Positions 2,241-30,497 of a DNA stretch of 64,000 nucleotides are shown one piece after another (position 1 is the first letter of the stretch; each line of letters begins with the position of its first letter). The DNA comes from Mesorhizobium mediterraneum (GTDB lineage Bacteria > Pseudomonadota > Alphaproteobacteria > Rhizobiales > Rhizobiaceae), in NCBI RefSeq assembly GCF_002284565.1, contig NZ_NPKI01000011.1, forward strand, positions 186,001 to 250,000, given 5' to 3'. The notes under the pieces are model-generated. The model saw only the letters and a program-made list of their open reading frames with translations, was not told the DNA's origin and did no database searches. Made by a program: the position numbers and the translations under genes.

Positions 2241-2244
2241 GGGT

Positions 2245-3078: not shown

Positions 3079-4028
3079 CACGGATGCTGCCTTGCCGCGG
3101 GCGTCAGGCGGGCGCCCAGCGCTGCGATCTGGATCAGCGAGAGGGTGAGCGCGATGACCAGCACGATGACGGAGAGCGCGGCCCCGCTGCCTGTGTCGCC
3201 CAGCACGAAGCTCTGCTTGAAGATGAATGTGCCGAAGACCTCGCTGGCCCGGTTCGGTCCGCCGCCGGTCATCAGGTGCACGATGGGGAAGGTCTGCAAT
3301 GTGCCGATAACGCCCAGGAGCAGCAGGGATTTCGTTGCAGGGGCAAGCATCGGCACGATCACATGCACGGCAAGCCGCCAGCCCTTCGCTCCGTCTATGC
3401 GGGCGGCATCGAGCACTTCGCTCGGCAGGTTGGCGATGCCGGCGATGTACATGAGCATCGAGAAGCCGGTCCATTGCCAGATGTTGACGATGATCAGCGC
3501 ATAGATCGCCGTCTCCGGGTCGCCGATCGGTGACGTCGCCATGACGATGCCGACGCGCTTCAAATACTCCTGGGCAATGCCATAGTAGGGCGCGTAAATT
3601 TGCACCCAAACCAGGCTGATGACCGAAACCGAGGTCACCACGGGCAGGAAGAACATGGTGCGAAAGAAGCCGCGAAGGGCGTGGGTATGGCGCTCGATGA
3701 AATAGGCGAGCAGCCCGCCAATCAGCATCTGCACCGGTATGGTGATGACGCCCCACAGAAACATGTTGCGCACCACGGTCCAGAAGGTCGGATCGCCGAG
3801 AACCGTCCTGTAGTTGGCAAGTCCGGCAAAGACCGCTCCGGCGCTTGTGCCGACATAGAGGCTCTGCCCGGCGACCCAGAGAATCGGATAGGCGATGAAG
3901 ACGACAAACAGAAGCGTCGCCGGAAGCACGAAAAGATAGAGCCGCGAAGCTCTGGATGCCGATCGCCGCCCGACCTTCGCGATGGTGGATCCGGCTCGCA
4001 TAGCTTCTGTGCTCATGATGCTTGCCAT
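3078..4028 (-). CDS. sugar ABC transporter permease, MalF type
   Basis: About 316 residues with a short N-terminal arm, a first membrane segment (LYLFVLPATLLFVVFIAY) and about five more. The EAA loop (DAARIDGAKGWRLAVHVIVP) marks it as an ABC importer permease. The start is ambiguous: ATG at 4028 (MASIMSTEAM) or ATG at 4016 (MSTEAMRAG), and neither has a strong ribosome site. It follows the binding-protein gene after a perfect stem-loop and overlaps the next permease by an ATGA. Confidence 0.9.
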   Translation of the reverse strand: MASIMSTEAMRAGSTIAKVGRRSASRASRLYLFVLPATLLFVVFIAYPILWVAGQSLYVGTSAGAVFAGLANYRTVLGDPTFWTVVRNMFLWGVITIPVQMLIGGLLAYFIERHTHALRGFFRTMFFLPVVTSVSVISLVWVQIYAPYYGIAQEYLKRVGIVMATSPIGDPETAIYALIIVNIWQWTGFSMLMYIAGIANLPSEVLDAARIDGAKGWRLAVHVIVPMLAPATKSLLLLGVIGTLQTFPIVHLMTGGGPNRASEVFGTFIFKQSFVLGDTGSGAALSVIVLVIALTLSLIQIAALGARLTPAARQHP

Positions 4029-4040
4029 TTCAGAATGAAG

Positions 4041-4066
4041 CGACCGGGCGCGTCTGCGCCCGGTCG
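4041..4066 (-). repeat. perfect intercistronic stem-loop after the binding-protein gene
   Basis: A 10-bp perfect inverted repeat (CGACCGGGCG, 6-nt loop, CGCCCGGTCG) starts 12 bp past the stop of the solute-binding protein gene and precedes the permease gene. There is no U-run, so it is more likely an mRNA-stabilising or partial-attenuation hairpin than a full terminator. That would explain the higher level of binding protein usually needed relative to the membrane subunits. Confidence 0.6.
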
Positions 4067-4077
4067 TTCGTCCCAGG

Positions 4078-5361
4078 TTACTTTGCAGCAAGTGCCTTCT
4101 CGGTCGCCGCCTGCACGGTGGCGAGCGCTGCTTCCGGCTCGATGCTGCCAGCCGCGACGCCGGCAAGCGCATTGTCGAGCGCCTCGGCGACTGCCGGCGA
4201 GGCAAAGCGCTGGTTTTCCGCCTTGGGCAGGTCTGCCATGAAGCGGGCCGACATCTCCTTCACGTGATCGGTAATGTCGCCCTTCGGCGAATAGCCCTCG
4301 AACGCCGGGAGGTCGTTGAGGTCATTCAACGCCTCCTGAAGGCCAACGCCGTTGGTGAGTTCGGCAAGAAAAGTCCAGGCTTCGGGGTTCTTGCCACCAT
4401 TCTTGGTCAGGCCGTAGCCGATGTCGATGCCGCCGACGGGCGGGCTCGCTGGATTGCCGTCCTTGACAGGAGGCAGATAAAAAAAGTCGAAGCCGTCCAT
4501 GTTCTGGACAAACTCGGACAGTGGGGGAGGGAACTTGCTTTCCTGCATCCACCAGGAGCCGAGCGCCATCATGCCGACCCTGCCCTGTGCAAAGAGCTGA
4601 GCGCCCGTCGGATAGGCATGCGCCCCAAGCGCTCCCTGTTGGAAGATGCCGTCGTCGAAAAGGCCTTTCCAGGCCTTCATCGCCTCGACGAGTTCCGGTG
4701 CTGTCCAGGGCGTTTCGCCCGCCTGGGCCTTGTCGACGATGCCCGGCGAGAACTGGTTGGCGAGCATGAGGAAAACGTTCTCGTTCTGCCAGCCGTCGGC
4801 CGCGCCCTGGAACATCGGAATATAGCCGTTGTCGGTCAGCGCCTTGGCCGCAGCTTTCAACTCGTCATAGGTCTTTGGTGCCGAAAGATTGAGCTTTTCG
4901 AAGACCTTGCGGTTGTACCAGATGCACAGAACCTGGGATTCCTGGGGGATGATGTAATAATTTTCGTCGCCCTTCGGATTGCCCATCAGCATCTGCTTGC
5001 GGTTGACCGGGAAGATCTTTTCCGCCCACTTGTCGCCCCACTGCTTGGCGGCGCGCTCGTTCACCGCTTCAAGATTTTCGCGATATTGTTGGGTGAGCGA
5101 TCCCGGCTGCAGGCCGATCACGTCAGGCAGGCTCCCGGACGCCGCCGCCGCCTTCAGGGCCGTGATGTATTCAGGCGAATAGTTGTAGTAGGTATATTTC
5201 ACCTTGACGTCCGGATGTGCCTTCTCGAAGGCGGCGATGGACTTGTTCATCGTGCTCTGCACGAACCATGACCAGACGGTCACCTCTTTCTGCTCGGCAT
5301 TCGCCGAAGCAGAAAGAGCGGCGGCGAGGATCGTCGTCGCAAGAAACAGCATCTTCCTCAT
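4078..5361 (-). CDS. sugar ABC transporter periplasmic binding protein, family 1
   Basis: A 427-residue extracellular solute-binding protein. The signal peptide is clear (MRKMLFLATTILAAALSASANA, cleavage after ANA). The mature part starts with EVTVWSWF and carries the family signature LPDVIGLQPG. The start at 5361 is chosen because a strong ribosome site, GGGAGGAA, lies 6 bp upstream; the longer frame to 5385 lacks one. It is the first gene of the five-gene sugar transport operon (binding protein, two permeases, ATPase, SDR). The ligand is unknown; monosaccharides, polyols or oligosaccharides are all possible. Confidence 0.9.
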   Translation of the reverse strand: MRKMLFLATTILAAALSASANAEQKEVTVWSWFVQSTMNKSIAAFEKAHPDVKVKYTYYNYSPEYITALKAAAASGSLPDVIGLQPGSLTQQYRENLEAVNERAAKQWGDKWAEKIFPVNRKQMLMGNPKGDENYYIIPQESQVLCIWYNRKVFEKLNLSAPKTYDELKAAAKALTDNGYIPMFQGAADGWQNENVFLMLANQFSPGIVDKAQAGETPWTAPELVEAMKAWKGLFDDGIFQQGALGAHAYPTGAQLFAQGRVGMMALGSWWMQESKFPPPLSEFVQNMDGFDFFYLPPVKDGNPASPPVGGIDIGYGLTKNGGKNPEAWTFLAELTNGVGLQEALNDLNDLPAFEGYSPKGDITDHVKEMSARFMADLPKAENQRFASPAVAEALDNALAGVAAGSIEPEAALATVQAATEKALAAK

Positions 5362-8184: not shown

Positions 8185-8958
8185 ATGTTTCTCGAACGGT
8201 TCCGACTTGACGGTAAAACTGCCTTCATCACCGGCGGCGGCCGCGGCATCGGCCTGTCGACGGCCGAAGCGCTCGCGGAGGCTGGCGCACGGGTTACCAT
8301 ATCGGACATGGATCCTCAGGTGTTGGAGGCGGGGCGTGACGAGCTAAAGCGGAAGGGCCATCAGGTCGAAGCGGTACAGCTCGACGTAACCGATTCCAAG
8401 GCCGTTGCCGCAGCCGCTCGATCTGCCAATGAGCGTCACGGCGCGGTCGATATCCTGATCGCCAATGCGGGGATCGCCTGGCCCGACACAGGCGGGGAGG
8501 ATATGAGCGACGACGTATGGCTGAAGGTGATCGACGTCGACCTGAATGGCGCCTATTGGTCATGCCGGGAGTTCGCAAGACCCATGCTCGAACGTGGCCG
8601 TGGCGCGATCGTCACGCTGGGTTCCATGTCCGGATTGATTTCCAACAAGCCGCAGCGTCAGGTGCACTACAACACCGCAAAGGCCGCCGTTCACCACATG
8701 ACACGCAGCCTTGCCGGAGAATGGGCCGAGCGCGGCGTGAGGATAAACTGTGTCGCGCCGACCTATGTCGATACTGTCATGTCGCGCGGCGGCTTCACTG
8801 ACAACAAGCTGATGCCGGTGTGGATGGAGATGACGCCGATGAAGCGCGTTGCGCGCCCCGACGAGATTGCCGCTTCCATCCTCTTCCTTGCCTCGGATGC
8901 AGCGAGCGCTATGACCGGCGCGGTTGTGGTTGTGGATTGCGGCTATACGATTTGGTAG
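8185..8958 (+). CDS. short-chain dehydrogenase, polyol-dehydrogenase-like
   Basis: A 257-residue classical SDR with TGGGRGIG (cofactor loop), ANAG, the catalytic Ser in LGSMSG, and Tyr/Lys in YNTAK. The D in ITISDMD-type position after the second strand favours NAD(H) over NADP(H). A ribosome site AAGGA precedes the ATG by 8 bp, and the gene follows the ADP-dependent kinase after 12 bp, so the two are probably co-transcribed. Likely role: oxidation of an imported sugar alcohol or sugar before phosphorylation. Substrate not determined. Confidence 0.85.
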   Translation: MFLERFRLDGKTAFITGGGRGIGLSTAEALAEAGARVTISDMDPQVLEAGRDELKRKGHQVEAVQLDVTDSKAVAAAARSANERHGAVDILIANAGIAWPDTGGEDMSDDVWLKVIDVDLNGAYWSCREFARPMLERGRGAIVTLGSMSGLISNKPQRQVHYNTAKAAVHHMTRSLAGEWAERGVRINCVAPTYVDTVMSRGGFTDNKLMPVWMEMTPMKRVARPDEIAASILFLASDAASAMTGAVVVVDCGYTIW

Positions 8959-10194: not shown

Positions 10195-11253
10195 CTATGG
10201 CGAGGCGGGTTCGCGCATCACGGCAACATCTCTGGCCGCCAGGAATGCGATGATCTCGTCGTCGATCGCCTGCATGTTGGCTTCGCGAAACTTGTCGTGC
10301 GTGCCCGGGACGACAACGGTTTTTATCCTGGTTTTTTCAGACGCCCAGCCCCTGTATTGCTCCACCGTTGCGGCGCTCCATTCCGAACTGGCGAGAACCA
10401 GGATATCGCAGGGGTAAGACGAAGGCGAGAATCCGGCAGCGGCGCGGACGAGGGCGCTCTTGAATGCTTTCTGCCGGGTGTGACGCCCGATGCGCGTTTG
10501 TCCCAGCCCAGCGGCATTCAAGCCGTCGCGAAGCAGGCGCCAATAGACGACCTTGCGCGTGATCTGGCGCCGCCTGCTGGCGGTCATGCGGTCGTCCGGT
10601 ATCGGCTTCAGCCAGGCCGAGCCGAGCGGCGGCGGATCGATGAGCAGCAGCGCAGGCCGCTCGCCAGTCACTTCATAGGTGAGGCGCCCGACCTCGATCG
10701 CAAGCAAACCGCCAAGGCAGATACCGCCGATTATATGTGGGTGTCGGCCTGTCACTGAGGTCAGGCCTTCAAAATAGTTGGCGCTTATTTCGTCCAGATT
10801 GGAATACGGTGTTTCGCCGGGCTCAAGACCCATGCCGCGCACGGCCATCACCGCGTATTTCTCCTTGAGGCGCTTTCCGAAGCGATTGGCGAACAGCGCC
10901 GATCCCGAAATGCCGTGGATCATTGCGATCGGCTCATGGCCGGAACTGCCGGATACCGGCACAATGAGTTGCCGTGCGGGGTGGGTTGGCGTCAAGGACG
11001 CGACCAGCCTGCCAAATTCACGCGGCGTCGGCGCCGCCAGCAGGACCGAAGTCTGGAGCTTGATGCCGAACCGGTTTTGGACGGCAAGAACGAGAGTTTC
11101 GGCGGTTAGCGAATCGCCCCCGAGATCGAAGAAACTATCGTCGATGTCCGCGGTCGGAATTTGCAGTTCCGTGGCGAAGATGCCGGCAATAACATGCGCG
11201 GGACCGTCGCTCGGTATCGCACGGATAGGCTGGATAATTGGCCGCACGTTCAT
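10195..11253 (-). CDS. NRPS T-TE protein with a Cys-type thioesterase
   Basis: A 352-residue two-domain protein. Residues ~15-90 are a carrier (T) domain with DDSFFDLGGDSL, Ser48 being the phosphopantetheine site. Residues ~105-340 are a type I thioesterase of alpha/beta-hydrolase fold. The nucleophile elbow reads GGICLGG, so the nucleophile is Cys179 instead of the usual Ser; Asp206 (LLIDPPP) and His319 (PGTHDKF) complete a triad. ATG at 11253 is preferred to a TTG at 11259. It is the last gene of the cluster and should release, cyclise or dimerise the product. Cys thioesterases are known for making strained or thioester-linked products; the outcome here is open. Confidence 0.85.
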   Translation of the reverse strand: MNVRPIIQPIRAIPSDGPAHVIAGIFATELQIPTADIDDSFFDLGGDSLTAETLVLAVQNRFGIKLQTSVLLAAPTPREFGRLVASLTPTHPARQLIVPVSGSSGHEPIAMIHGISGSALFANRFGKRLKEKYAVMAVRGMGLEPGETPYSNLDEISANYFEGLTSVTGRHPHIIGGICLGGLLAIEVGRLTYEVTGERPALLLIDPPPLGSAWLKPIPDDRMTASRRRQITRKVVYWRLLRDGLNAAGLGQTRIGRHTRQKAFKSALVRAAAGFSPSSYPCDILVLASSEWSAATVEQYRGWASEKTRIKTVVVPGTHDKFREANMQAIDDEIIAFLAARDVAVMREPASP

Positions 11254-11437
11254 CGGCAAGCCCCCTGGATCGATGATCGTCCGCCTTTTGGGAAGCTTGG
11301 CGGTACATCGAATGCTTGCGTGCTTTTAACTCACAGCCTGTGCGGCTAACAAGGACTCATCGCAGCGACCAAGCGGGCGCTGTTCCTTTGATCGAGAGAC
11401 GCAGCAGGTATGCCGATCCTGAATGGTCGCTCGCCTT

Positions 11438-13132
11438 TCACCGAATACCAGCCCAGGCAAAAAGCCCTTTCCATCTCTTGATCAGTTTTGCAGTTGGCCC
11501 GTTCACTTTCCTGTCGGACGATTGCGCGGTCTGGCCGTTGTTGGTGGGGCCACTAGGTGCCTGCAAATATTGCTGCAGAAGCAGCCTGTCTATCTTGCCG
11601 GTTGGCGTCAGCGGCAACGACTCGATCGCGTGGATTCGGCCCGGAATTTTCCACTGTGGGAGGATCGACCTCAAGCTGGCCCTTAATGCGTCAGTCTGAA
11701 ACAAGGCTCCCTGTTTTATCACGACGAAGGCGGCAAGGGAGTGCGCATCCTGGCGAAGTTCGGTGATGACCGCGACTTCATTCACCATTGGAAGCAGCAG
11801 GAAAGCCTGCTCGATTTCCCGCGTTTCAACGCGATACCCGCGAATCTTGACCTGGTCGTCGCGCCGTCCGAGGAATTCAAGACCGTTGCTCGATAAACGC
11901 CCGATATCGCCGGTGTGAAACACACGCTGATCGGGAAAATTGAGGTCGGTGCCGAAATGCTTTGCCGTTTCGGACGCCTGCCGCCAATAACCGTCTGCCA
12001 GGAAAGCGCTGCGGACGACGAGTTCGCCGACGCCTCCCTGTTCGACCGGCTGGCCATCTTCATCGACGACCAGGAGAGACTTGTCCGCGACTGGTCGCGG
12101 CGCCGGTACCGTGCCTGGCGCGAGCAACTCGCCCGGAGCTACCGAAGCCACCGCGATGTGACCGGCTTCGGTGGAAGAGAAGCGATGGCGCAAGGCACAG
12201 GACCTCGCGAAGTGATGGCGCCATTGCTCGACGTCCGAGGCAACGACCGTTTGACCCGCCAGCGCCACCAAGCGTACCGATGGATGCAGGCCCGAGCCCG
12301 CGAGCATCGACAGATACTTGCGAAACAACATCACCGGAGGGTGCAGTAAGGTTACGCGACGCTTATCAATCCACGCCCCGAGACCACCGAGACCACCCGA
12401 TGCAGCATCGTAGAGTTCCAGCGTGGCTCCGTTGAGAAGCGCGCCGAAGACGTCCGCCTCCGATGAGGCGAAACTGCAATATGTCAGGAGGGACTGCCGG
12501 TCTGTGGAGTTCACCCCGTCATACCGGGCACAAAGCCAGGCCCGATGCAGCACGGTGCGATGGCTTTTCACGACCCCTTTCGGCCGCCCGGTGCTTCCAG
12601 AGGTGTAGAAGATTGCGGCCGGGTCACCCGGGTCCATCGGAATATGCAACGCATCAGCCGAATAACGCGCGTCGATGTCCTCAAGCAGGAGAACCCGCCT
12701 GTGGTCATCGACAAGGTCATGCGCGGCAGGCGCGTGAGACGCATCGGTAAGCAGCAGATCCGGCGCCGCATCGCTGAGTATGTCGCGCTGTGCTGCAAGC
12801 GGCATACCAGGATGGAGGCAAAGGAATGCCTTTGCCGCCTTGAGCGCCGCCAGCGCGCAGATCACCATGTCCGGCGAATGGTCGACAAGATAGGCGACGC
12901 ATCCGCGCCCGGGCTGCGTGTGCTCGAGGATTGCCCGGGCCAGCTGATTGGAGCGTCGTTTAACGTCGTCGTATGTCCATCGATGCCGGTCGCCGCCAAT
13001 CGCCACGTGCGAGCCATACCTGCGGACCACTGTGTCGAAACGCGCCGGGATGGTCTGCTCCAACTCGGCCCGGTCGAACGCCATCATGCGACCATTCAGA
13101 TCGGGCGCGGGATCGTGCAAGTGTTCAGCCAT
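11438..13132 (-). CDS. free-standing NRPS adenylation domain
   Basis: A 564-residue AMP-forming adenylation enzyme. Core motifs: FYTSGSTGRPKGVV (A3), SSTE where most NRPS A domains have GPTE (A5), HTGDIGR (A7), and TPTGKIDR with the catalytic Lys (A10). By eye the A4 segment SFASSEADVF aligns with SFDASVWEMF, so the residue equal to Asp235 of GrsA is Ala; an alpha-amino acid would not be held normally. ATG 13132 overlaps the synthetase stop by 8 bp. It has no carrier domain and must load a T domain in trans, most simply the T-TE protein encoded next. Substrate unknown; a keto, hydroxy or aryl acid is possible. Confidence 0.85.
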   Translation of the reverse strand: MAEHLHDPAPDLNGRMMAFDRAELEQTIPARFDTVVRRYGSHVAIGGDRHRWTYDDVKRRSNQLARAILEHTQPGRGCVAYLVDHSPDMVICALAALKAAKAFLCLHPGMPLAAQRDILSDAAPDLLLTDASHAPAAHDLVDDHRRVLLLEDIDARYSADALHIPMDPGDPAAIFYTSGSTGRPKGVVKSHRTVLHRAWLCARYDGVNSTDRQSLLTYCSFASSEADVFGALLNGATLELYDAASGGLGGLGAWIDKRRVTLLHPPVMLFRKYLSMLAGSGLHPSVRLVALAGQTVVASDVEQWRHHFARSCALRHRFSSTEAGHIAVASVAPGELLAPGTVPAPRPVADKSLLVVDEDGQPVEQGGVGELVVRSAFLADGYWRQASETAKHFGTDLNFPDQRVFHTGDIGRLSSNGLEFLGRRDDQVKIRGYRVETREIEQAFLLLPMVNEVAVITELRQDAHSLAAFVVIKQGALFQTDALRASLRSILPQWKIPGRIHAIESLPLTPTGKIDRLLLQQYLQAPSGPTNNGQTAQSSDRKVNGPTAKLIKRWKGLFAWAGIR

Positions 13133-16100
13133 GGCCCTCTGCAAGCTGGTTTTCGGTCACGGCACTCAGTTCGGCGTCGAGCTTTGCCTTCCGTCCATAG
13201 GCGACGAGAGCCCTGTAAGTTGATGAGCGCAACCGCACACCTTCCCTCAGGCTCTCCTCGCGGGCGCGCAATTCCATTTCGCCGGGGATCAGGATTTCGG
13301 TGGCGCCTTCGGCACGTTCGCCGTTCCTGGTCTGCTCGATCAGGCGGTCGACGCGCTCGGTGAATTCCGACGCCGGCATGAATCGCTGTGGATCCAGCGC
13401 CATGAAGAAATGGCCGTAGTCGGGCGCCTGGGCGCTCTCGCGCAATCTGTCCTGATGGTGATCGCTGCCAAAACCCGCGCCGCTGAGCACGCCCGCAAGC
13501 ACCTCCATCACCAGGGCCAGGCCATATCCCTTGTGTCCGCCGATCGGCACGCCAAGCCCTGCGGCGAGATCGCCGAGATCGGTCGAAGGGCGCCCCGACC
13601 GGTCGAGAATCCAGCCCGGCGGCAACGGACTGCCTTCCGCCACGGACAGGCCGATCTTGCCGCGAGGCGCGACGCTCATGGCGACGTCGAGAAGGATAGG
13701 GAAATGTCGCCCTGCCGGAATGCCGACACCGAGCGGATTGTTGCCGAATGTCGGCGTGACCCCGCCCGTCGGTGCCAGGATCAGCGGTCCGTTGGTCGTG
13801 CAGAGCCCGATGAGACCGTTCTTCGCTGCCTGCCAGACATAGTGGCCGGCGGCGCCGAAATGGTTGGAGCGGCGGACGCCGACAATTCCAACGCCGTGCC
13901 TGCCCGCCTTTTGAATGGCGAGGTCCATCGCCACCGTGCTGACCCACTGGCCCGGGCCGTTGTCGCCATCGATCCGCGCGATGGTGGCGGTCTCGTGCTC
14001 GATCCGTATTTGAGGATCGGCGTTGATCTTGCCCGAGGCAATCCGCACGGCATAACGCGGAATGCTGACCATGTCGTGCGTCGGCTGTCCGCGCAGGCTC
14101 GCCTCGAGTTGGACTTCCGCGACGATTTCCGCACCCTTGAGGCTCAATCCAGCCCGTGTCAGCGCTTCGCGACCGTAGACGCGAAGGCTTTCAATCGTCA
14201 CCAGAATTTTCCCGCCATTTCCGCTCGATGCCGGTGCAGCCGCGACGGTTGGCCCGATGTCATGCCGTGCCTGGGCGACTGCGCGAGCCAGATCGGTGAT
14301 CGTCTGATGCTGATAGAGCTGACGCAGATCGACGTGCAGACCGGCCCTGCTGGCTTCGACAACAACATTGATGCTCAGGATGGAATTGCCGCCTAGGTCG
14401 AAGAAGTTGTCGTGTAGCCCAACCTCATCGAGCCGCAACACCTTTTTCCAGACCCCCGTCAGGATCGTCTCGTCGTCGGTTGGCGCGACCACGCGCAGAT
14501 CGACCCGGCTGGAGGGATGCGTCACGACAGTTGATCGAGCCGTCTGCGCCTCCTTGGTGAGCAGTGCCCGTCGGTCGACTTTTCCGTTCGACGTGCGAGG
14601 CAAGCGCTGCAGCATGACGATGCGTTGCGGCAGCATGTATTCCGGGAGCTGCTGCTTCAGAAATTCGCGCAGGCGCCCGGACAGAGCAGGCACTTGCGCA
14701 TCATGCTGCTCATTGGCCGCAACGAAGGCCACCAGACATTTGCGATCGCCGATATTATCGTCTGTGGCAGCATCCTCCACCACGCCGACGACACATTCGC
14801 GCACGTCCGGGTGTGTGTGAATCGCAACCTCGATCTCGCCCAGTTCGATACGGAAACCGCGAATCTTCACCTGTTCGTCGGCGCGGCCGAGAATTTCGAT
14901 CGTCCCGTCAGGCCGGTATCGGGCCAGATCGCCGGTTCGATGGAGCCGCGCGCCGTCATGCGGGCTGAACGGATTTCGGACGAAGTTCTTCGCCGTATGC
15001 TCCGGATGATTGATGTAGCCGGCTCCAATACCGCCGCCGCCGACATACAAGTGACCGCCGATGCCAACCGGCACCGGGCGGCGGGACGTGTCCAGCACAT
15101 AGGCCTGCGTATTGGCAATCGGCCGACCGATCGGGACGACCTTCGCCGCGCCGCCCTCGGCCGGGACGGGATAGATCATCACGATCCCTGTCGTCTCGGT
15201 CTGGCCGAACATATTGATGAATCTTGTCCCGGGTCTGCAGAGGTGCCGCCATTTTTCTATCAAGGCGCTGGGCAAGGGCTCGCTGGCTGAAAGCACGAGC
15301 CGTAGCTGATTGTCGAGCAAGCTTGCCCGCACGGGTTGATCGAGCGACATCAAGACCTGCAGGCAGCCGGCCGAGAATGATGGAACAAGGTCCAGCACTG
15401 ATACGCGCTGGTGGCGTACCATCTCGAACAGCAAATGCGGATCGCGGAGTTCCTCGGCCGAAGCAACGGCCACGGCCGCACCGCAGGAGAGCGGAACGGC
15501 AAACTGCCGTATCGAGGAGGAAAACGAGAACGAAGCCGTGTGCAGGTAGATGTCGTCCGGACGGATTGCGACAGCGCGGACCATCGCCTGCGCATAGTGG
15601 CCGACATTCGCCTGCGTGATCATCGCGCCTTTGGGTTTGCCTGTGGAGCCTGACGTGTAGATCACGTAGGCAAGCGCGTCGGACGCAGGGATGGTGCCAA
15701 CGTTGTGACTGTCCTCCAGCGCTAGGGAAGCATGGCAGGCGTCGATGCAGATGGTTCGGGTGTGGTCGGAGCTGTCGATGGCCATCGACTGAAACGTGGA
15801 GGGGAATTTTGGCAGCAGCGATGTCTCGGTGATGAGCAAGCTCACGCCGGCGTCACGCAGCATAAAAGCAATACGTTCGGACGGATGTTCGGGGTCGAGG
15901 GGCAGAAACGCACCGCCGGCCTTCCACACCCCGAGCAGCACCGCCAGCATCTCGGCAGACCTCGGCAGGCAGATCGCTGTCAATGTCTCGCGGGCAACGC
16001 CGCTGCGGCGAAAATACCGCGCGAACCGGCTGGCTCGCTCGTTGAGCTCCCGATAAGTGAACTGCCGGTCCCCGCCCAGCACGGCTGTGGCATCAGGTGT

Positions 16101-19100
16101 TCGCTCGACCTGCGCTTCGAACAGCTGGACATAATCCTGCCCCAGCAATTCGCTGGCTTCGGTGTGGTTCCAGTCGATTTCGACCTGGCGGCGGTCGACC
16201 TCAGGCAACAGGGACAGTTCCGACAGTCTTTGCCCGGGATCGCTTCCTATGCTTTCGAGCAAGGTCTGGAAATGCCGTGCCAGCCGGTCGATCGCGGCCG
16301 GCTCGTACAGATCAGCGTTGAATTGCCAAGTCGCGGACATCCCTTCCGGGGTTTCCGACAGGTACAGAGTAAGGTCGAACTTCGCCGTCACCTTGTCGAT
16401 GCGCACAGGTTCCGCTGAGAGACCTTGCGCGAGATCGAAGCAAGGTCCCGCCACGTGATCAGTTGCCGACTGAGCGGGCAAGACCGAGCCTGGCAACCCT
16501 GGGATGTTCTGAAACGCGAACATGACTTGGAACAACGGCGCGTGGCCGGGATCGCGCGGGATATTCAACTGTTCAACGATGCGCTCGAGAGGAACATCCT
16601 GGTGCGCGTAGGCGTCAAGCGCCGTCGACCGGACGCGGCCGAGCAATTCCAGGAATGACGGGTCGCCCGCAAGCGGCGTTCGCAAAACCAGCGTGTTGGC
16701 GAAGAACCCGATCAGCGGCTCCAACTCCTTGCTCGGGCGGTTTGCGATCGGCACGCCGACGGCGCAATCGTCTTGCCCGTTGTAGCGGTGGAGCAATGTC
16801 TTGAAGGCCGCCAGAAACGTCATGAACACGGTCGCATTATGGCTTTGACCCAGCGCCTTAAGTTGATCCGTCGTTTGACGGTCGATCAGGGCCTGTATGG
16901 TGCCGCCGCGATAGGATTGAATGGCCGGGCGAGGGCGGTCCGTCGGAAGCGTGAAGGCCGGCGGCATCTCCTTGAGCTGACGGATCCAGTAACCGGTCTG
17001 GCGCTCGAATTCGCCGGCCTCGACGCCGTGCTGCTGCCAGGCTGCGAAGTCGCCGTACTGAAGCGGCAAGTCGTCGAGCGGCGACGCCCTGTCGTCATGA
17101 AATGCTTCGTACAGTTGCCTCAACTCGGTGTAGAGGACGCCGATCGACCAGCCGTCGGAAACGATGTGGTGCATCGTCAGAAGCAGGACGTGCTCGTCGG
17201 ATGTCAGCCGGATCAGCTTGGCGCGAAACAGGGGACCTTGCGCCAGGTCGAACGGTTCGCCAGCGTCCTGGCTGGCGAGGTGCTTTGCCTCGGCGGTTCG
17301 TGCGTCCGCCTTGTGGCCGGACAGATCAATCATCACCAGCCTGGTTTCCTGAAATTCGGAAACCACTTGCACTGGTCCGCCCTCGCGCATGTGAAAGGTC
17401 GTGCGCAGGATGTCGTGACGTCGGCGAATTTCGTCGAGGCACAGCGCCAATGCACGCTCGTCGAGCGGGCCTGTCAGCCAGAGCGAGGCCGACATATTGT
17501 AGGCGCCGCCGGCACCCATCCGATCAAGAAAATAGACGCGCTTTTGCACGGAGGAGAGCCGTGCGAGCGTTCCTCCTTGCCGCCGGGGGATGTGTTTCGC
17601 GGCCTGCGTAGAAGTCGTCGATCCTTGCTCCAGTCGCGCTCTGCCATCCGCTACGAGATCGGCCATCTGCTCGCCGATGCGCTCCGAAAGTCGCGCAGTG
17701 GTCGGGCGTTCAAACATGCAATCGATCGGCAACGTAACCTGGAATATCTCCTGCAACCTGGCGAGAACCTGCATGGCGATAAGTGAATGACCGCCCAGGT
17801 CGAGGAAATCGTCATGAATGCCGGGCGGTTCGATTCCCAGAACTTCGGCAAAAACCGCCGCCACCCGGCGCTCAGTGGCGGTTCGGGCAATCACTTTGCC
17901 AGTCTGTGGCGGATCGCGTTGAGCGTTCTGTTGTTGCAGAGCGAGCGTCAGGGCCAGATGTTTGCGATTGACCTTTCCGCTGGAATCGACGGGGATCTCA
18001 TCCACCACAACGATCCACTGCGGCACCTTCGAGCGTGCCAGCCGCTCGGCGACAAAGTCGCGGATCTGCTGAACCGGCGTAAATTGTTTCTGCCCCGCCT
18101 TGAGCACGACCGCTGCGGCGACCGTCTCGCCGAGCACCAGGTGGGGAACGCCGAAAACAACCGCCTGTCCGATCGCGGCATGCTGGAGCAGGATCTGCTC
18201 CACCAGCCGCGGCGAGATCTTTTCGCCGCCGTGATTGATGATATCCTTCAGGCGGCCGGTGACGAACAGATAACCTTCGGCATCGAGGTGGCCTATGTCG
18301 CCTGTCCGCAGCCAGCCATCGATGAAAGCGGCTTGGTTGTCAGTGCGATCATCATAATCGTGCATGACATTTGGGCCGCGAATGACCACCTCGCCACTCC
18401 CGCCGGGCGGCAACAGACGTCCGGCTTCATTCATAATGGCAATTTCTGGACCGGCAGCCTTGCCCACGGAGCCTGGCTTGCGTTCGAACGGCGGAAGGCG
18501 ATTGCTCGCAATCTGCGGCGCCGCCTCGGTCATCCCGTAGGCTTCGACAAACGGTACGCCGAACGCGCTTTCGGTATCCGCGATCAGCTGTGGCGGCATT
18601 GGCGCCGAAGCCGAGCGAATGAAGCGCAATCCGCTCTGGCGCGGGTCTTCGCGGCAGAGACGGATCTGATCGAGGATCGTGCGATGCACGGCCGGGGAAG
18701 CCGTATACCAGGTCGGCTTGAGGTCGCTGAGACAGCTAAAGAAGCGGTCGGCGGAAAAGCCCTCCACGCTGATATAAGAGCCTCCGCATACCAGCGATGA
18801 CAAAAGGCTGCTGATGCCATGGATATGAAACAGGGGCATCATGCCCAAGCACCGGTCGGTGTGCCGGAGATCCACCGCCGCGCAAATGTTGCGCGCCGAA
18901 ACGCAAAGGTTTCGATGTGTCAGCGGTACCAGCTTGGGCCGCGCAGACGTGCCCGATGTGAACAAGAGCAGTGCGGCATCGTCAGGCGCAGCCAACGGCT
19001 GGTCACCGCGATGCCCTCGACCAGCGGCTGTCAGCGAGAAGGTCCCGGCCGCCGCATCGGGCTGCGAAACGAGTTGCAGGATCCGGATGTTCAGTGACGC

Positions 19101-19451
19101 CGCCAAGGCGAGCAACGGCGATTCCCAGCCGTGCGGCACGATCAGGACTTGGGCACCTAGCGCGCTGAGCTGTGCTTCAAGCTCAGATGCGGGCCATGCC
19201 GGGTTCAGCGGAGCGCATGCCGCATTGGCTACCACCGCCACGATCGCAACCGCTGCTTCCGCTCCTTCGGGCAGGATGAGCGCGACGCGGCCCGTTGGCC
19301 CGACAGCTTCCAGCGCCAGCTTTTCGCCGACATAGTGGATCTGGCGCCCCAGCCCTTCATAGGTGAGGGGTGGGCGTCCCGCGGCCAGAACGGCCACCGA
19401 TTGCGGATTGTGTCCGGCATGCCGGTCCACATGGCCACGTATAGTGTCCAT
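13125..19451 (-). CDS. hybrid NRPS: acyl ligase-ACP-C-A-T-Ldh_2 reductase
   Basis: 2108 residues. 1-500: AMP-forming acyl ligase of the Pcs60/AAE3-like type (FTSGTSARPKLVPLTHRN, PLFHIHG, WYTASPAVHR; Lys493). ~520-600: carrier, Ser556 in DLGGHSL. ~625-1080: condensation domain, active HHIVSDG at 761-767. ~1100-1632: adenylation domain with IYTSGSTGKPKG, RTGDLARY and NGKVDR. ~1655-1735: carrier, Ser1690 in DLGGNSI. ~1748-2095: complete Ldh_2 (malate/L-lactate dehydrogenase, DpkA-like) NAD(P)H oxidoreductase with RSNHFGAAG, FGNNPLG and GGHKGYGLAL. The A4 segment SFSSSIRQF has Ser where GrsA has Asp235. A ribosome site GGAGCGG precedes the ATG. The C-terminal reductase fusion is very unusual. Likely product: an acyl cap joined to one residue, then passed on. 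Confidence 0.93.
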   Translation of the reverse strand: MDTIRGHVDRHAGHNPQSVAVLAAGRPPLTYEGLGRQIHYVGEKLALEAVGPTGRVALILPEGAEAAVAIVAVVANAACAPLNPAWPASELEAQLSALGAQVLIVPHGWESPLLALAASLNIRILQLVSQPDAAAGTFSLTAAGRGHRGDQPLAAPDDAALLLFTSGTSARPKLVPLTHRNLCVSARNICAAVDLRHTDRCLGMMPLFHIHGISSLLSSLVCGGSYISVEGFSADRFFSCLSDLKPTWYTASPAVHRTILDQIRLCREDPRQSGLRFIRSASAPMPPQLIADTESAFGVPFVEAYGMTEAAPQIASNRLPPFERKPGSVGKAAGPEIAIMNEAGRLLPPGGSGEVVIRGPNVMHDYDDRTDNQAAFIDGWLRTGDIGHLDAEGYLFVTGRLKDIINHGGEKISPRLVEQILLQHAAIGQAVVFGVPHLVLGETVAAAVVLKAGQKQFTPVQQIRDFVAERLARSKVPQWIVVVDEIPVDSSGKVNRKHLALTLALQQQNAQRDPPQTGKVIARTATERRVAAVFAEVLGIEPPGIHDDFLDLGGHSLIAMQVLARLQEIFQVTLPIDCMFERPTTARLSERIGEQMADLVADGRARLEQGSTTSTQAAKHIPRRQGGTLARLSSVQKRVYFLDRMGAGGAYNMSASLWLTGPLDERALALCLDEIRRRHDILRTTFHMREGGPVQVVSEFQETRLVMIDLSGHKADARTAEAKHLASQDAGEPFDLAQGPLFRAKLIRLTSDEHVLLLTMHHIVSDGWSIGVLYTELRQLYEAFHDDRASPLDDLPLQYGDFAAWQQHGVEAGEFERQTGYWIRQLKEMPPAFTLPTDRPRPAIQSYRGGTIQALIDRQTTDQLKALGQSHNATVFMTFLAAFKTLLHRYNGQDDCAVGVPIANRPSKELEPLIGFFANTLVLRTPLAGDPSFLELLGRVRSTALDAYAHQDVPLERIVEQLNIPRDPGHAPLFQVMFAFQNIPGLPGSVLPAQSATDHVAGPCFDLAQGLSAEPVRIDKVTAKFDLTLYLSETPEGMSATWQFNADLYEPAAIDRLARHFQTLLESIGSDPGQRLSELSLLPEVDRRQVEIDWNHTEASELLGQDYVQLFEAQVERTPDATAVLGGDRQFTYRELNERASRFARYFRRSGVARETLTAICLPRSAEMLAVLLGVWKAGGAFLPLDPEHPSERIAFMLRDAGVSLLITETSLLPKFPSTFQSMAIDSSDHTRTICIDACHASLALEDSHNVGTIPASDALAYVIYTSGSTGKPKGAMITQANVGHYAQAMVRAVAIRPDDIYLHTASFSFSSSIRQFAVPLSCGAAVAVASAEELRDPHLLFEMVRHQRVSVLDLVPSFSAGCLQVLMSLDQPVRASLLDNQLRLVLSASEPLPSALIEKWRHLCRPGTRFINMFGQTETTGIVMIYPVPAEGGAAKVVPIGRPIANTQAYVLDTSRRPVPVGIGGHLYVGGGGIGAGYINHPEHTAKNFVRNPFSPHDGARLHRTGDLARYRPDGTIEILGRADEQVKIRGFRIELGEIEVAIHTHPDVRECVVGVVEDAATDDNIGDRKCLVAFVAANEQHDAQVPALSGRLREFLKQQLPEYMLPQRIVMLQRLPRTSNGKVDRRALLTKEAQTARSTVVTHPSSRVDLRVVAPTDDETILTGVWKKVLRLDEVGLHDNFFDLGGNSILSINVVVEASRAGLHVDLRQLYQHQTITDLARAVAQARHDIGPTVAAAPASSGNGGKILVTIESLRVYGREALTRAGLSLKGAEIVAEVQLEASLRGQPTHDMVSIPRYAVRIASGKINADPQIRIEHETATIARIDGDNGPGQWVSTVAMDLAIQKAGRHGVGIVGVRRSNHFGAAGHYVWQAAKNGLIGLCTTNGPLILAPTGGVTPTFGNNPLGVGIPAGRHFPILLDVAMSVAPRGKIGLSVAEGSPLPPGWILDRSGRPSTDLGDLAAGLGVPIGGHKGYGLALVMEVLAGVLSGAGFGSDHHQDRLRESAQAPDYGHFFMALDPQRFMPASEFTERVDRLIEQTRNGERAEGATEILIPGEMELRAREESLREGVRLRSSTYRALVAYGRKAKLDAELSAVTENQLAEGHG

Positions 19452-19531: not shown

Positions 19532-20233
19532 TCAATGCGCAGAGACGTCAAAACACGAGAACAAGGTTCCATCGCTGTTGCCGAAGCGGCCTTCAAAGCA
19601 GCCATTGTCGGCCGCCGCCAGGCGGCTTGATCGAATGACCATGGCTTTGGCGTTCTCCACATCCAGTTCGATACGAACATCATGAAACGTCAAAAAGCGC
19701 CGGTTGAGCGGGAAATGCATTTTGTAGAAGGCTTCCTTTATCACGAACAGAAGCTTTGGCAGGTCGTAGCCTAGGCGCCCTTCGATCACGTCCCGCTCTT
19801 TCAATTCCGAAGCACGCGACACCAGTTTTGTCAGTTCGTCGGAAAGCGGAGAATCTTCCTCGATGTCGATTCCGATGCCGAGGCAATCGGCGGACAATCC
19901 GACGGCGACAGCGCACAGGCTTCGGGTATGAGAGATTGAACCGACAATACCTGTCGGCCAGACCGGCGCCCGATCGTGTCCAATCGGGATGACGCTTTCA
20001 GGAATGCCCAGGCCCCGCAATGCCTGCCTTGCGTAAATGCGTCCGGCGCGAAACTCACGACGTCGCGCCGGCACGACATTGCCCAGAGACAGTTCTTCTT
20101 CGAGCAGCCAATCTCGATCTGCTGGTTTGAAATCGCCGCCCTCGATGACGATGCCATCCGCAACCAATTGTCGAATGGCTGCTATCAGGCGGGCTGGCGA
20201 AGAGTCGTCGCGGACTTTCGGTTCACCAGGCAA
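19532..20233 (-). CDS. 4'-phosphopantetheinyl transferase, EntD/Sfp class
   Basis: About 233 residues. It adds the phosphopantetheine arm from CoA to the Ser of carrier domains. Signatures seen: the magnesium/CoA motif GIGIDIEED, the upstream SISHTRSLCAVAV, and the C-terminal KEAFYK. TTG at 20233 is chosen because AAGGAG lies 5 bp before it; a GTG at 20239 overlaps that site. It lies 80 bp before the synthetase gene on the same strand, so it is presumably the dedicated activator of the three carrier domains in this cluster. It marks the upstream end of the NRPS operon. Confidence 0.9.
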   Translation of the reverse strand: MPGEPKVRDDSSPARLIAAIRQLVADGIVIEGGDFKPADRDWLLEEELSLGNVVPARRREFRAGRIYARQALRGLGIPESVIPIGHDRAPVWPTGIVGSISHTRSLCAVAVGLSADCLGIGIDIEEDSPLSDELTKLVSRASELKERDVIEGRLGYDLPKLLFVIKEAFYKMHFPLNRRFLTFHDVRIELDVENAKAMVIRSSRLAAADNGCFEGRFGNSDGTLFSCFDVSAH

Positions 20234-20295
20234 TACCACTCCTTCACCGATCCAAACTGCTGCTGTCTTGCGTTGTAACAGAACGTCGACGAACC

Positions 20296-20732: not shown

Positions 20733-21713
20733 ATGAAATACGTCGTCGATACGATCGGCGGTCCCGCAGGCGGTGATGCCTGGCAAGCCGCTGTTACCGA
20801 AGCCTATTTTCCGCTCGACACCGAGTATCGGAACCGTCGTGAATTTTCAGGCACGCTGGAAACCTTCTCTCTCGGGCTCGTCAGCGTGTCTAAAATGCGC
20901 TGCGATGCTGTAAGCTATCGTCGCCATCGCCGCCACTTCCTCAACGAGCGTGACGCCAGCCTGCTCGTCACCATCCCGGAGATGTCGGAGGTGAATTTCT
21001 CGCAAGGATCGAGGACCGTCAATTGCGGTCCGGGGGGCTTCCTCCTTGAGAGGGGAGATGCGCCTTACGAATTCTGGCACGGCAAGCCAAACGCGCTGTG
21101 GGTCCTGAAGGTGCCGTCATCGAGCGTTCGGGCACGGATCGGATCTGCCGAACGGCTCAGTGCACTCAGTTTCGACGCTACCCAAGGCATCGCCGCGCTC
21201 TTTCTCGACACGGTGCGAACCACGATCGGCCATGTCGATGAGATCACTGAAGTCGCTCGTGAGATGATGGGCAGGCACATCCTGGAAATGCTGTGCCTGT
21301 CGATCGTGAGTGACGATCGCGTGCTGGACAGCAGCATCTCGTCGATCCGGGCCGGCCATTTGCATCGCGCCGAGCAGTATATTCGCGACAACCTGAAGAA
21401 TTCCGGCCTCGGCCCGCAGGCTGTGGCCGATGCCTGCGGCATCTCCCTGCGTTACCTGCAGGTTCTTTTTCAGGACAGCAACCAGTCGATCAACGGCTTC
21501 ATCCGCGACGCCCGGCTTGAACTTTGCGCCGAGGAGCTGATGTCGGTGACCAACATCAGCAGCGTTGCCGAGATCGCTTACCGCTGGGGCTTCGCCGACC
21601 AGTCTCAGTTCTGCAAGCACTACCGGACGCGGTTCGGCTGCGCACCGACCGATACCCGTCGCGAAGCAGCGAGCCGGGCGGGTCGCGCTTCGACCTCGAG
21701 AGAGCGGCACTAG
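20733..21713 (+). CDS. AraC-family transcriptional regulator
   Basis: A 326-residue protein with an N-terminal AraC-binding-like sensor half and a C-terminal pair of helix-turn-helix motifs (VADACGISLRYLQVLFQ, then SVAEIAYRWGFADQSQFCKH). A GGTCGGGGA ribosome site precedes the ATG. It lies about 100 bp upstream of hyuA in the same direction and probably activates hyuAB in response to the lactam or hydantoin substrate. The N-terminal half looks like the FeaR/AraC_binding_2 class. The inducer is unknown. Confidence 0.88.
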   Translation: MKYVVDTIGGPAGGDAWQAAVTEAYFPLDTEYRNRREFSGTLETFSLGLVSVSKMRCDAVSYRRHRRHFLNERDASLLVTIPEMSEVNFSQGSRTVNCGPGGFLLERGDAPYEFWHGKPNALWVLKVPSSSVRARIGSAERLSALSFDATQGIAALFLDTVRTTIGHVDEITEVAREMMGRHILEMLCLSIVSDDRVLDSSISSIRAGHLHRAEQYIRDNLKNSGLGPQAVADACGISLRYLQVLFQDSNQSINGFIRDARLELCAEELMSVTNISSVAEIAYRWGFADQSQFCKHYRTRFGCAPTDTRREAASRAGRASTSRERH

Positions 21714-21816
21714 ACCCGACGAAGTCCGGGCCAATTCCACCATTTACTGCGACGTCACCCCGGCAAGGGGCGATGGGGCCGGGCTTTGCCCGCAAAGACC
21801 CTACGAAGGAACTGTC

Positions 21817-23844
21817 ATGAGCCGAATAAGAGTTGCCGTCGATGTCGGAGGGACCTTCACCGACATCTGTATCATGGACGAAGATAGCGGCGCGATCCGC
21901 ATCGAGAAGACCGCCTCCACGCCTGATGATCCCATGCAGGCCATCATGAATGGCGTGGAGCAGGGCCGCATCGATCTTTCCGAGGTGACGATGTTCTCTC
22001 ATGGCACGACGGTTGCCACCAATGCGCTGATCACCCGCCGCCTGCCACGCACCGCAATGGTCTGCACCGAGGGTTTCCGTGACGTTGTCGAGATCCGTCG
22101 CGCCAACAAGGAAGACCTCTGGGACACCTACAAGGATGTCGCCAAGCCCTATATCCCGCGCCGCGACCGGCTGACAGTCCGGGAACGGGTCAGTGCCGAG
22201 GGCACGATCCTGGAAGCGCTGGACGAAGAGGCTGCGCGCCGCGTCGCGGAAATTCTCGTGAAACGGCAGGTCAAGTCCATAGCCGTCTGCTTCATGAACT
22301 CCTATGTCAACGGTGCCAATGAGCGCCGCATGCGTGAGATCCTGAAGGAGGCCATGCCGGATCTGCCGGTCTCGATCTCCTCGGAAGTGATGCCGGAAAT
22401 CTTCGAGCACGAGCGTTTTTCCACCACCATGGCGAACGCCGTCTGCGCCCCGGTCGTCGTCGACTACGTGTCGCGTCTCGGAGAAAAGCTTGCAGCGGCC
22501 GGATACAAGCGAGATCTCCTGTTGCTGCACAGCGGTGGCGGGGTCATGACACCCGCAAGCGTCAGGGATTTCTCAGCTCGGCTCGCAGGATCGGGCATCG
22601 CTGCCGGCGCGATCGCAAGCCGCTTCATCGGAAATCTCTGTGGCTTCCCGAACTCGATCGGCTTCGACATGGGCGGTACCAGCACCGACGTCTCGCTCGC
22701 ATGGAACGGGGAGTCGCGCATCACAAAAGACTGGTACATCGAATTCGGATATCCGATCCGCTTTCCCTCCATCGAGGTGCTGACCATCGGTGCAGGCGGC
22801 GGGTCGTTGGCATGGCAGGACGAAGGCGGCAGCTTGCGCAACGGACCGCAGTCCGCCGGCGCTTTTCCAGGTCCGGCCTGCTACAAGAATGGCAACCGCA
22901 CTGCCACCAACACCGACGCCAATGTCGTGCTCGGCCGTCTCGGCACCAGCCTTGCGGGCGGCAAGATCACGCTCGACCCCGCCTTGGCCGCCCAGGCGGT
23001 GCAGGAGACGGTGGCGGCACCCTTCGGCATGGAAATCCACAAAGCGGCCGAGGCGATCATCGCCGTCGCCAACGCCAATATGGGCAATGCCGTCCGGCTT
23101 CTCTCCATCAGCCGAGGCTATGACCCGCGCGACTTTGCGCTCGTCGCATTCGGCGGTGCAGGCGCATTGCACGGAGCGGCCGTGGCGAAGGAGCTTTCGA
23201 TTCCAACCGTGATCGTGCCGCCCAATCCCGGCGTCACCTCCGCGCTCGGTTGCCTTCTCGTCGACGTGCAGCACGATTTCTCCGAAAGCTTCATGGCCGA
23301 TGCTTCGACGGTCTCGCCCGCCGAGATGCAGACAGCCTTTGTTCTGATGGAAGAACAGGCCGTTGAGCGTCTGACCCATGAGGGCGTGGCGCGGGAAGAC
23401 ATGGCGCTGCAGCGTACGGTCGAGATGATGTACCAGGGACAGTGGCGCTCGCTTGCGGTGTCAGCGCCGGCGCGGATCGAGAGCATCTGCTCGCTGATCG
23501 AGGCATTCCACAACGAGCACGAACGCGAGTTCAACTACCGCCGCGAAGAGGCGCCGGTGTCGATCTTCCGCATCGCGGTCAAGGCGATCGGCATCGTCCC
23601 GAAAGCCGAGATACCGCGGCATGAAGTCTTGCCGCATAAGCCACAGCCGGTCGGCCGCCGCAGCGTCTGGTTCGACGGCGCATCTCATGACGCGGCCGTG
23701 TATGAGCGTGAGCAACTCAGCGCCGGCGCTGCCTTCACAGGGCCCGCCATTGTCGAACAGTTCGATTCCACCACCGTGGTTCCGCCGGGAATGAGCGCGA
23801 CCGTCGATGGCTTCCTGAACATTCTCATCGTGACGAAAGGCTGA
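21817..23844 (+). CDS. hyuA: hydantoinase/oxoprolinase subunit A
   Basis: 675 residues, the usual length for HyuA. The ASKHA-type ATP site is shown by AVDVGGTFTDICI at the N-terminus, a repeat of the phosphate loop at FDMGGTSTDVSL, and LVAFGGAGALHGA. With HyuB it should hydrolyse a cyclic amide (hydantoin, 5-oxoproline or another lactam) using ATP in the cytoplasm. The start is ATG 21817, behind GAAGGAA; upstream codons in the same frame belong to the AraC gene region. HyuB follows after 3 bp. Acetone carboxylase beta subunits are related, but the partner here is HyuB-type. Confidence 0.92.
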   Translation: MSRIRVAVDVGGTFTDICIMDEDSGAIRIEKTASTPDDPMQAIMNGVEQGRIDLSEVTMFSHGTTVATNALITRRLPRTAMVCTEGFRDVVEIRRANKEDLWDTYKDVAKPYIPRRDRLTVRERVSAEGTILEALDEEAARRVAEILVKRQVKSIAVCFMNSYVNGANERRMREILKEAMPDLPVSISSEVMPEIFEHERFSTTMANAVCAPVVVDYVSRLGEKLAAAGYKRDLLLLHSGGGVMTPASVRDFSARLAGSGIAAGAIASRFIGNLCGFPNSIGFDMGGTSTDVSLAWNGESRITKDWYIEFGYPIRFPSIEVLTIGAGGGSLAWQDEGGSLRNGPQSAGAFPGPACYKNGNRTATNTDANVVLGRLGTSLAGGKITLDPALAAQAVQETVAAPFGMEIHKAAEAIIAVANANMGNAVRLLSISRGYDPRDFALVAFGGAGALHGAAVAKELSIPTVIVPPNPGVTSALGCLLVDVQHDFSESFMADASTVSPAEMQTAFVLMEEQAVERLTHEGVAREDMALQRTVEMMYQGQWRSLAVSAPARIESICSLIEAFHNEHEREFNYRREEAPVSIFRIAVKAIGIVPKAEIPRHEVLPHKPQPVGRRSVWFDGASHDAAVYEREQLSAGAAFTGPAIVEQFDSTTVVPPGMSATVDGFLNILIVTKG

Positions 23845-23847
23845 GAC

Positions 23848-25815: not shown

Positions 25816-25860
25816 GCGCTAGAGAGCGCGCCCCAAACCTTGCGGGCGCTCGCAGGAGTT

Positions 25861-25971
25861 ATCTGTTTTTTAGATACCATTTTCAAGGAATTACTATTTC
25901 ACAGGAGCCTAAAGCTGGAGCAACAATGTTGCAACGCTGCGAAAGTCGGCTGCTTCCGAGGGGTATGACAG
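25861..25971 (+). promoter_or_regulatory. promoter/leader with LysR-type ATC-N9-GAT box, copy 1
   Basis: An ATC-N9-GAT box (25861-25875), a TACTATTTCACA element (25892-25903, TACTAT a likely -10), TGCAACGC (25930-25937) and GAGGGGTA (25958-25965, ribosome site) precede the Mo-hydroxylase genes. The same elements occur in the same order at the same spacing upstream of the second pxpA gene (41907-42017, minus strand). The box fits the T-N11-A rule of LysR-type activators and lies just upstream of the -35 position, as an activation site should. Confidence 0.65.
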
Positions 25972-29658: not shown

Positions 29659-29670
29659 GGCAAGCAAACC

Positions 29671-30402: not shown

Positions 30403-30497
30403 TTCATTTTTCCGAATCGTGAAAGCTCCACGCATGGGATCGAGGACTATCTCGAACTCACAGCCCGAACCATTTCCACAAGCCGCTGAGGACTTCC

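Follow-up and report, generated by a model that had tools for sequence, protein, structure and literature searches.

An Ldh_2-type dehydrogenase domain fused to a non-ribosomal peptide synthetase in Mesorhizobium: a candidate reductive tailoring domain

The stretch of Mesorhizobium mediterraneum DNA analysed here (64,000 nucleotides, contig NZ_NPKI01000011.1, positions 186,001 to 250,000; the whole stretch is called the window) encodes a non-ribosomal peptide synthetase (NRPS) that ends in a complete domain of the Ldh_2 family of malate/lactate dehydrogenases. We propose that this domain is built into the second NRPS module for reductive tailoring and would reduce a 2-oxoacyl group on the preceding carrier domain (T2), after which the condensation (C) domain would esterify the product; a probability of about 0.45 is given to this reading. 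The known integral reductases of NRPSs are ketoreductase (KR) domains of the short-chain dehydrogenase/reductase (SDR) type or terminal reductase (R) domains. The fusion appears functional and looks like a mode of reduction that has so far gone undescribed for such enzymes, and no description of an NRPS-Ldh_2 fusion was found among the open-licence PubMed Central literature matches listed (titles and abstract starts).

The NRPS frame begins with ATG, is free of internal stops and encodes 2108 amino acids (aa), in which Pfam finds two AMP-binding, two PP-binding, one Condensation and one Ldh_2 domain. Adenylation domains are written A and carrier domains T; AllD, a member of the Ldh_2 family, provides the reference numbering. 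The gene and its domains are as follows.

13125..19451, minus strand: NRPS gene, A1-T1-C-A2-T2-Ldh_2, 2108 aa
17931..19445, minus strand: A1, acyl-AMP-ligase type, residues 3-507, code positions IHSTRAAIAK
17676..17867, minus strand: T1 carrier domain, residues 529-592, Ser556 in GGHS
16185..17561, minus strand: condensation domain (C), residues 631-1089, HHIVSDG
14562..16121, minus strand: A2, residues 1111-1630, code SSRDLAMGIK, without Asp235, FGQTE replacing YGPTE
14277..14474, minus strand: T2 carrier domain, residues ~1660-1725, Ser1690 in GGNS
13206..14198, minus strand: Ldh_2 domain, residues 1752-2082, His1792, His1864, Asp1922 and Lys1974 retained, Ser1796 at the position of AllD Arg48

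The original prediction, made from the letters of the window, had described a complete Ldh_2 domain in the same frame directly after a T domain, and this is borne out by Pfam, which places PF02615 at residues 1752-2082 (374 bits; curated cut-off 38.8) and covers profile positions 2-332 of 333; the motifs RSNHFGAAG, FGNNPLG and GGHKGYGLAL are all present. Its further statement that the domain follows the last carrier holds for this protein and not for the gene group, as a third A domain then follows. The second module has the signatures of a C-A-T elongation module, with HHIVSDG at 761, YTSGSTG at 1265 and GGNS with Ser1690. In the AlphaFold2 model of T2-Ldh_2 (26 sequences; mean predicted local distance difference test score, pLDDT, 84.5), two well-formed domains are joined by a loose and poorly predicted linker (model residues 78-92 at pLDDT <50). 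Structure comparison of this model relates the carrier part to peptidyl carrier protein domains and the Ldh_2 part to malate/lactate dehydrogenases (3i0p, Z 45.2, root-mean-square deviation 1.8 over 347 residues; 1vbi, Z 44.5). The domain is a member of PF02615 by profile, fold and histidines, yet it fits no NCBIfam model that it matched: its score lies under the cut-off of all five Ldh_2-type models (best 248.8 bits versus 500), and the named equivalogs sulfolactate, ureidoglycolate, malate/lactate/ureidoglycolate and 3-dehydro-L-gulonate dehydrogenase do not apply at those cut-offs. Elsewhere in the genome, two more Ldh_2 genes turned up, both stand-alone, in frames of 388 and 344 aa.

An assembly or chance join was ruled out, since the same fusion recurs in 12 further loci, which brings the fused copies to 13 and shows that the arrangement is conserved in relatives. 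A search with Ldh_2 found it in 7 of 146 Mesorhizobium genomes, the window's own included, the six other copies having Ldh_2 domains 86-91% identical in frames of 2100-2185 aa. With A2 as the query across the genus, the same seven genomes were recovered (7/144, E 1e-110), each with one long frame, and no A2 without Ldh_2 was seen. From a scan of 84,980 species genomes with Ldh_2, the best 80 of 272 relatives were retained, among which four are the Mesorhizobium genomes already found and six are fusions in metagenome-assembled genomes labelled Phycisphaerales, Bryobacteraceae, Acidobacteria (two), Terriglobia and uncultured bacterium (Ldh_2 62-72% identical); the last of these came up in the phylum sample around the Phycisphaerales genome. 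Below the fusions in this set of the best 80 of 272 stand two Chloroflexi loci with a stand-alone protein (60% and 59%), followed by a drop to 41%, and no NRPS domain was found in the annotated loci L044-L059, which comprise the two Chloroflexi loci and lower-ranked matches. At E 1e-90, the phylum sample of L039 gave 2 matching genomes of 396 (the L041 and L043 genomes were not in this sample) and that of L038 gave 2 of 189, all of them fused; the 12 matches among 301 genomes of the L044 phylum sample all lie in frames of 357-552 aa. In samples of the family (394 genomes) and order (397) at E 1e-60, the only long-frame match was the window's own; these samples did not draw the six other fused Mesorhizobium genomes and say little on the genus. 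A plasmid origin was considered and rejected: 72,556 plasmid records (E 1e-60) returned two records only, each annotated as 'Ldh family oxidoreductase' and below 60% identity. Two fused loci are partial. L041 covers A2-T-Ldh_2, its contig beginning inside A2, and an A1-T-C match lies on another contig (L116) that is not joined to it; L042 ends inside Ldh_2 at a contig end.

No domain of the NRPS is under tighter constraint in Mesorhizobium than Ldh_2. Its median ratio of nonsynonymous to synonymous substitution rates over the 21 pairs of the seven copies, 0.132, is the lowest of all domains (T2 0.168, T1 0.193, A2 0.216, C 0.236, A1 0.261), with the linker at 0.475. Among the fused copies, HHxxxDG is present in all 12 that cover C, and the carrier serine (GG.S) in 12/12 T1 and 13/13 T2 domains covered.

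The equivalents of AllD His44, Tyr52, His116, Pro158, Asp174 and Lys224 are retained in 13/13 fused copies. According to PMC3527362, His44 and His116 of AllD are invariant in the family, and the H116A and R48A mutants are inactive. The position of Arg48 itself is occupied by Arg in none of the 13 fused copies (Ser in 11, Asp in 2), and that of Gly45 by Asp, Asn or His. Among 89 other Ldh_2 rows, which come mostly from a scan using query patterns and are not a random Ldh_2 sample, Arg48 is present in 83 and Gly45 in 89, and the two are replaced together in none (the second copy of L042, L117, was dropped from these rows and the second copy of Escherichia coli AllD was kept). In the window protein, Ser1796, Gly1888 and Pro1889 stand where AllD has Arg48, Ser140 and Asp141, so that it departs from the residues expected of an AllD. 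Arg48 lies 3.4 Å from the carboxylate of bound glyoxylate in AllD (PMC3527362), but the model of the true AllD substrate in the same paper sets it beside the ureido tail instead, and it is described there as conserved in AllD-like enzymes and not across the wider family; a role of Arg48 in carboxylate binding is therefore uncertain.

A tree of 105 Ldh_2 rows groups all 13 fused copies in a single clade (97/93) beside the two Chloroflexi rows, and together these are separated from all other rows by a long branch (1.85, 100/100). The tree excludes L120-L129, its midpoint root serves for drawing only, and the program's long-branch warnings concern other parts of it. Nine free-standing Chloroflexota relatives were compared in all (L044, L045, L120, L121 and L124-L128), seven of them 54-61% identical and two 48-52%. 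They resemble the fused form in the RGQPTHN motif and in the loss of Arg48, and differ from it in being single-domain proteins, in lying in catabolic-looking loci and in having Gly rather than Pro at AllD position 141. Four alignment positions split all 13 fused from all nine free-standing copies. Position 141 belongs to the substrate shell in AllD and is Pro in 13/13 fused and Gly in 9/9 free-standing copies, and the fused and free pockets thus differ.

The adenylation domains were read against GrsA (DAWTIAAICK). The A1 code is IHS[S/T]RAA[I/V]AK in 12/12 copies, a count that leaves aside L041, whose contig has A2 but no A1, the A2 code SSRDLAMGIK in 12/13 (SSRDLALGIK in L043), and that of A3, the stand-alone adenylation protein encoded next to the NRPS, ASAHAARHIK in 8/11, with L039, L042 and L043 deviating. 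Asp235 is absent from every A1, A2 and A3 code read, and ordinary alpha-amino acids are therefore disfavoured. Residue 235 of A2 is Ser in 13/13 copies, and the Pro of YGPTE is replaced in A2 by Gln in 12 copies and His in one. In the keto-acid domain StsA, Asp235 is replaced by Ile, and Met takes the place of a Pro that is conserved among A domains for alpha-amino acids (PMC11253843); we infer this Pro to be that of YGPTE. With Ser where an aliphatic residue would be expected at 235, use of a keto acid by A2 is no more than plausible. The three codes match no code known to us, and no substrate was assigned from them; A2 Arg239 presumably resembles codes for acidic amino acids bound via the side chain. 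The solved proteins nearest to A1 are oxalate-CoA (coenzyme A) ligases (332 to 267 bits, with 332 to 5ie0; the next family scores 187), a likeness that is a resemblance of sequence only.

Keto-acid depsipeptide modules serve as the model for the proposed mechanism (PMC4455996, PMC10949194, PMC11355689). A2 would activate an acid that has no alpha-amino group, most probably a small 2-oxo acid whose tail is polar or acidic, and load it onto T2. Ldh_2 would then use NAD(P)H to turn the T2-bound 2-oxo group into a 2-hydroxyacyl group, with His1792 and His1864 as candidates for acid/base catalysis, and C would form an ester between the A1-T1 acyl group and the hydroxyl so created. Ldh_2 would take the role that the SDR-type KR has in modules of the cereulide/valinomycin type, with an unrelated fold and by recruitment from a free-standing dehydrogenase.

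Several observations weigh against this mechanism. We know of no Ldh_2 enzyme that uses thioesters. Known Ldh_2 enzymes are dimers, and the NRPS would need to accommodate a dimer. Ldh_2 follows T, whereas the KR of keto-acid modules is embedded in A (PMC4455996). Keto-acid A domains have an aliphatic residue at 235 (PMC10949194, PMC11253843); A2 has Ser, and a hydroxy acid or another acid would also be compatible with it. Arg48 is also missing from the nine free-standing Chloroflexota relatives, where the residue is Asp, Ser, Gly or Ala, and from the more distant L129, in a comparison that left out the Chloroflexota matches G1116 and G1120, for which no locus was obtained. Since free-standing enzymes share it, the loss of Arg48 was dropped as proof of a thioester, carrier-bound substrate. 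Genes for HpcH/HpaI-type aldolases occur in three of nine Chloroflexota loci (L132-L140, from the L044 phylum sample; Pfam confirms L134 and L135), which suggests that free acids were the ancestral substrate. Outside the genus, moreover, the loci were found with an Ldh_2 query, by which forms without Ldh_2 would be missed.

The strongest rival, which we consider unlikely although worth serious weight, is that Ldh_2 supplies the substrate in situ by reduction of a free 2-oxo acid, the resulting 2-hydroxy acid then being activated by A2. Free-standing relatives that share the loss of Arg48 and sit in catabolic-looking loci speak for such a supply, as do two hydroxy-acid A domains in which residue 235 is small (Ala and Gly; PMC11253843) where A2 has Ser. 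However, A2 and Ldh_2 are found in the genus only together and fused, which a supply of free acid would not need, and Pro instead of Gly at AllD position 141 sets the fused copies apart from the free-standing ones. Because of this strict pairing and this fused-only change, reduction on the carrier is preferred to supply of the free acid; the sequence in itself allows no firm choice between the two. The original prediction had left on-line reduction and in situ supply side by side, and that pair still stands: the fusion is complete and conserved, its catalytic and cofactor residues are intact and an A2 without Asp235 fits a non-amino acid, while the loss of Arg48 in free-standing Chloroflexota proteins leaves the choice between the two to other kinds of evidence.

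The same prediction had also allowed for an imine substrate, for which no specific support was found. Here the group reduced by Ldh_2, whether carrier-bound or free, would be a 2-imino acyl group that is cyclic or N-substituted, by analogy with the action of DpkA on piperideine-2-carboxylate. DpkA, itself an Ldh_2 family member, aligns well (1wtj, Z 37.5), but it is among the weaker matches (131 bits versus 213 for 1v9n) with the lowest Z of the Ldh_2 rows listed, A2 is without Asp235, and no imine-forming gene was noticed by eye in the gene group, for which no dedicated search was made; we regard this substrate as improbable. It is just as improbable, in our estimation, that Ldh_2 works in the opposite direction and uses NAD+ to convert a carrier-bound 2-hydroxy acid to the 2-oxo acid, in the manner of AllD with ureidoglycolate. 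AllD does run oxidatively (PMC3527362) and the fold does not fix the direction, but nothing was found downstream that would need a 2-oxo product. Reductive release, in which Ldh_2 would replace an R domain and free the product from T2 by reduction of the thioester, would agree with the C-terminal site after T, where a 2055-aa relative of the same layout (L115) seems, from sequence matches, to have a thioesterase (TE) in place of Ldh_2. However, known Ldh_2 enzymes have 2-oxo or 2-imino carbons as their targets, R domains are SDR-type, and a coupled A3 follows in the window; a releasing role is very improbable. That Ldh_2 is an inert passenger retained by accident is scarcely credible, as purifying selection is stronger on it than on any other domain and the catalytic residues are retained in 13/13 copies from loci labelled with at least three phyla; nothing was found in favour of this reading.

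Taken further, the preferred reading of reduction on the carrier would make Ldh_2 a second, fold-unrelated on-line ketoreductase for NRPSs. It can be hypothesised, rather tentatively, that it was recruited once from a dehydrogenase already without Arg48, a possible pre-adaptation to thioesters, and spread across phyla in a small mobile gene group whose product would be built from three acids, none of them an ordinary amino acid. The patchy spread of the fusion and the flanking genes, which differ between the window, L025 and L030 (compared by eye), suggest horizontal movement.

The NRPS lies in a run of four genes, in which Pfam found no other oxidoreductase and in which one C domain stands against three A domains. 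The three neighbours of the NRPS are as follows.

11438..13132, minus strand: A3, stand-alone adenylation protein, a possible ATG overlapping the NRPS stop by 8 bases, code ASAHAARHIK
10195..11259, minus strand: T-TE protein, TE nucleophile motif GICLG (Cys in place of the usual Ser)
19532..20239, minus strand: 4'-phosphopantetheinyl transferase (Pfam), upstream of the NRPS

A homologue of the phosphopantetheinyl transferase adjoins the NRPS in 7/7 Mesorhizobium loci. T-TE adjoins the NRPS and A3 in two of the seven, the window and L025, where the gene order is A3, then T-TE, and both proteins may act with the NRPS on the way to the product. In L026-L029, A3 is present and T-TE was not found within the 19-kb locus; a T-TE homologue occurs elsewhere in genomes G022, G029, G035 and G049 (78-79% identical in these four Mesorhizobium genomes) and was not found in the G034 genome. 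The A3 place varies in the other loci: L030, L038 and L043 have A3-T-TE as a single protein with Ser in the TE motif, L039 has A3-T-thiamine diphosphate enzyme, L042 has a differing A-T, and the best A3 match in the whole genome of L040 is only 32% identical and is A2 itself. The product could not be deduced from a constant partner, since A3 and what follows it vary between loci.

Further observations concern this neighbourhood. The L039 protein (1211-4843), an A-T fused to a thiamine-diphosphate enzyme, lies directly upstream of the A-T-C-A-T-Ldh_2 gene and scores above the NCBIfam cut-off for PRK08327 ('thiamine pyrophosphate-requiring protein'). The T-TE homologue in L143 adjoins a likely AMP ligase, as judged by eye, and beside those in L141, L142 and L144 (L144 being close to the end of its contig) no further NRPS gene was recognised by eye. 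The relative L115 (G911, contig 271), a 2055-aa NRPS of A-T-C-A-T layout, shares 42% identity over residues 3-1749 and is matched by an A-T-TE query as far as its end, and its genome also carries the Ldh_2 form. In the window, an SDR gene (8185-8958) lies on the opposite strand beyond a gene for a DeoR-type regulator, and the plus strand at 20733-31880 holds, by eye, an AraC-type regulator, a hydantoinase/oxoprolinase pair, subunits of a molybdenum-type dehydrogenase, a LamB/YcsF protein and an aminotransferase.

If Ldh_2 is indeed a conserved reductase of these modules, NRPSs would have a new reductive domain, perhaps an exchangeable one, that differs in fold and cofactor geometry, and genome-mining tools would gain a domain that they may not expect. 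Such a reductase would also flag a family of gene groups, so far unstudied, that occur in Mesorhizobium and in uncultured bacteria and have A domains without Asp235.

As an NRPS tailoring domain, Ldh_2 would carry out a known kind of step with an unrelated fold. With the Ldh_2 family, represented by malate/L-lactate dehydrogenase type 2, L-sulfolactate dehydrogenase ComC, AllD, YiaK and DpkA, the fused form has in common the full-length domain, the fold, both histidines and the cofactor residues; it differs in being fused to an NRPS and in the replacement of both Gly45 and Arg48. Terminal R (thioester reductase) domains are likewise NAD(P)H-type and C-terminal after T, whereas Pfam finds only Ldh_2 after T2. 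A further parallel is with the A-KR-T keto-acid modules of cereulide, valinomycin and hectoramide B, in which, as here, the reductase shares a module with C and T and the A domain usually lacks Asp235. The KR of keto-acid modules is SDR-type, and no KR match was found in the NRPS protein (Pfam, E 0.001). Hectoramide B HcaB is described as the exception that retains Asp235 (PMC10949194). Compared with the cereulide-type modules, the reductase of the Mesorhizobium NRPS is of the Ldh_2 type and follows T, and residue 235 of its A domain is Ser rather than aliphatic.

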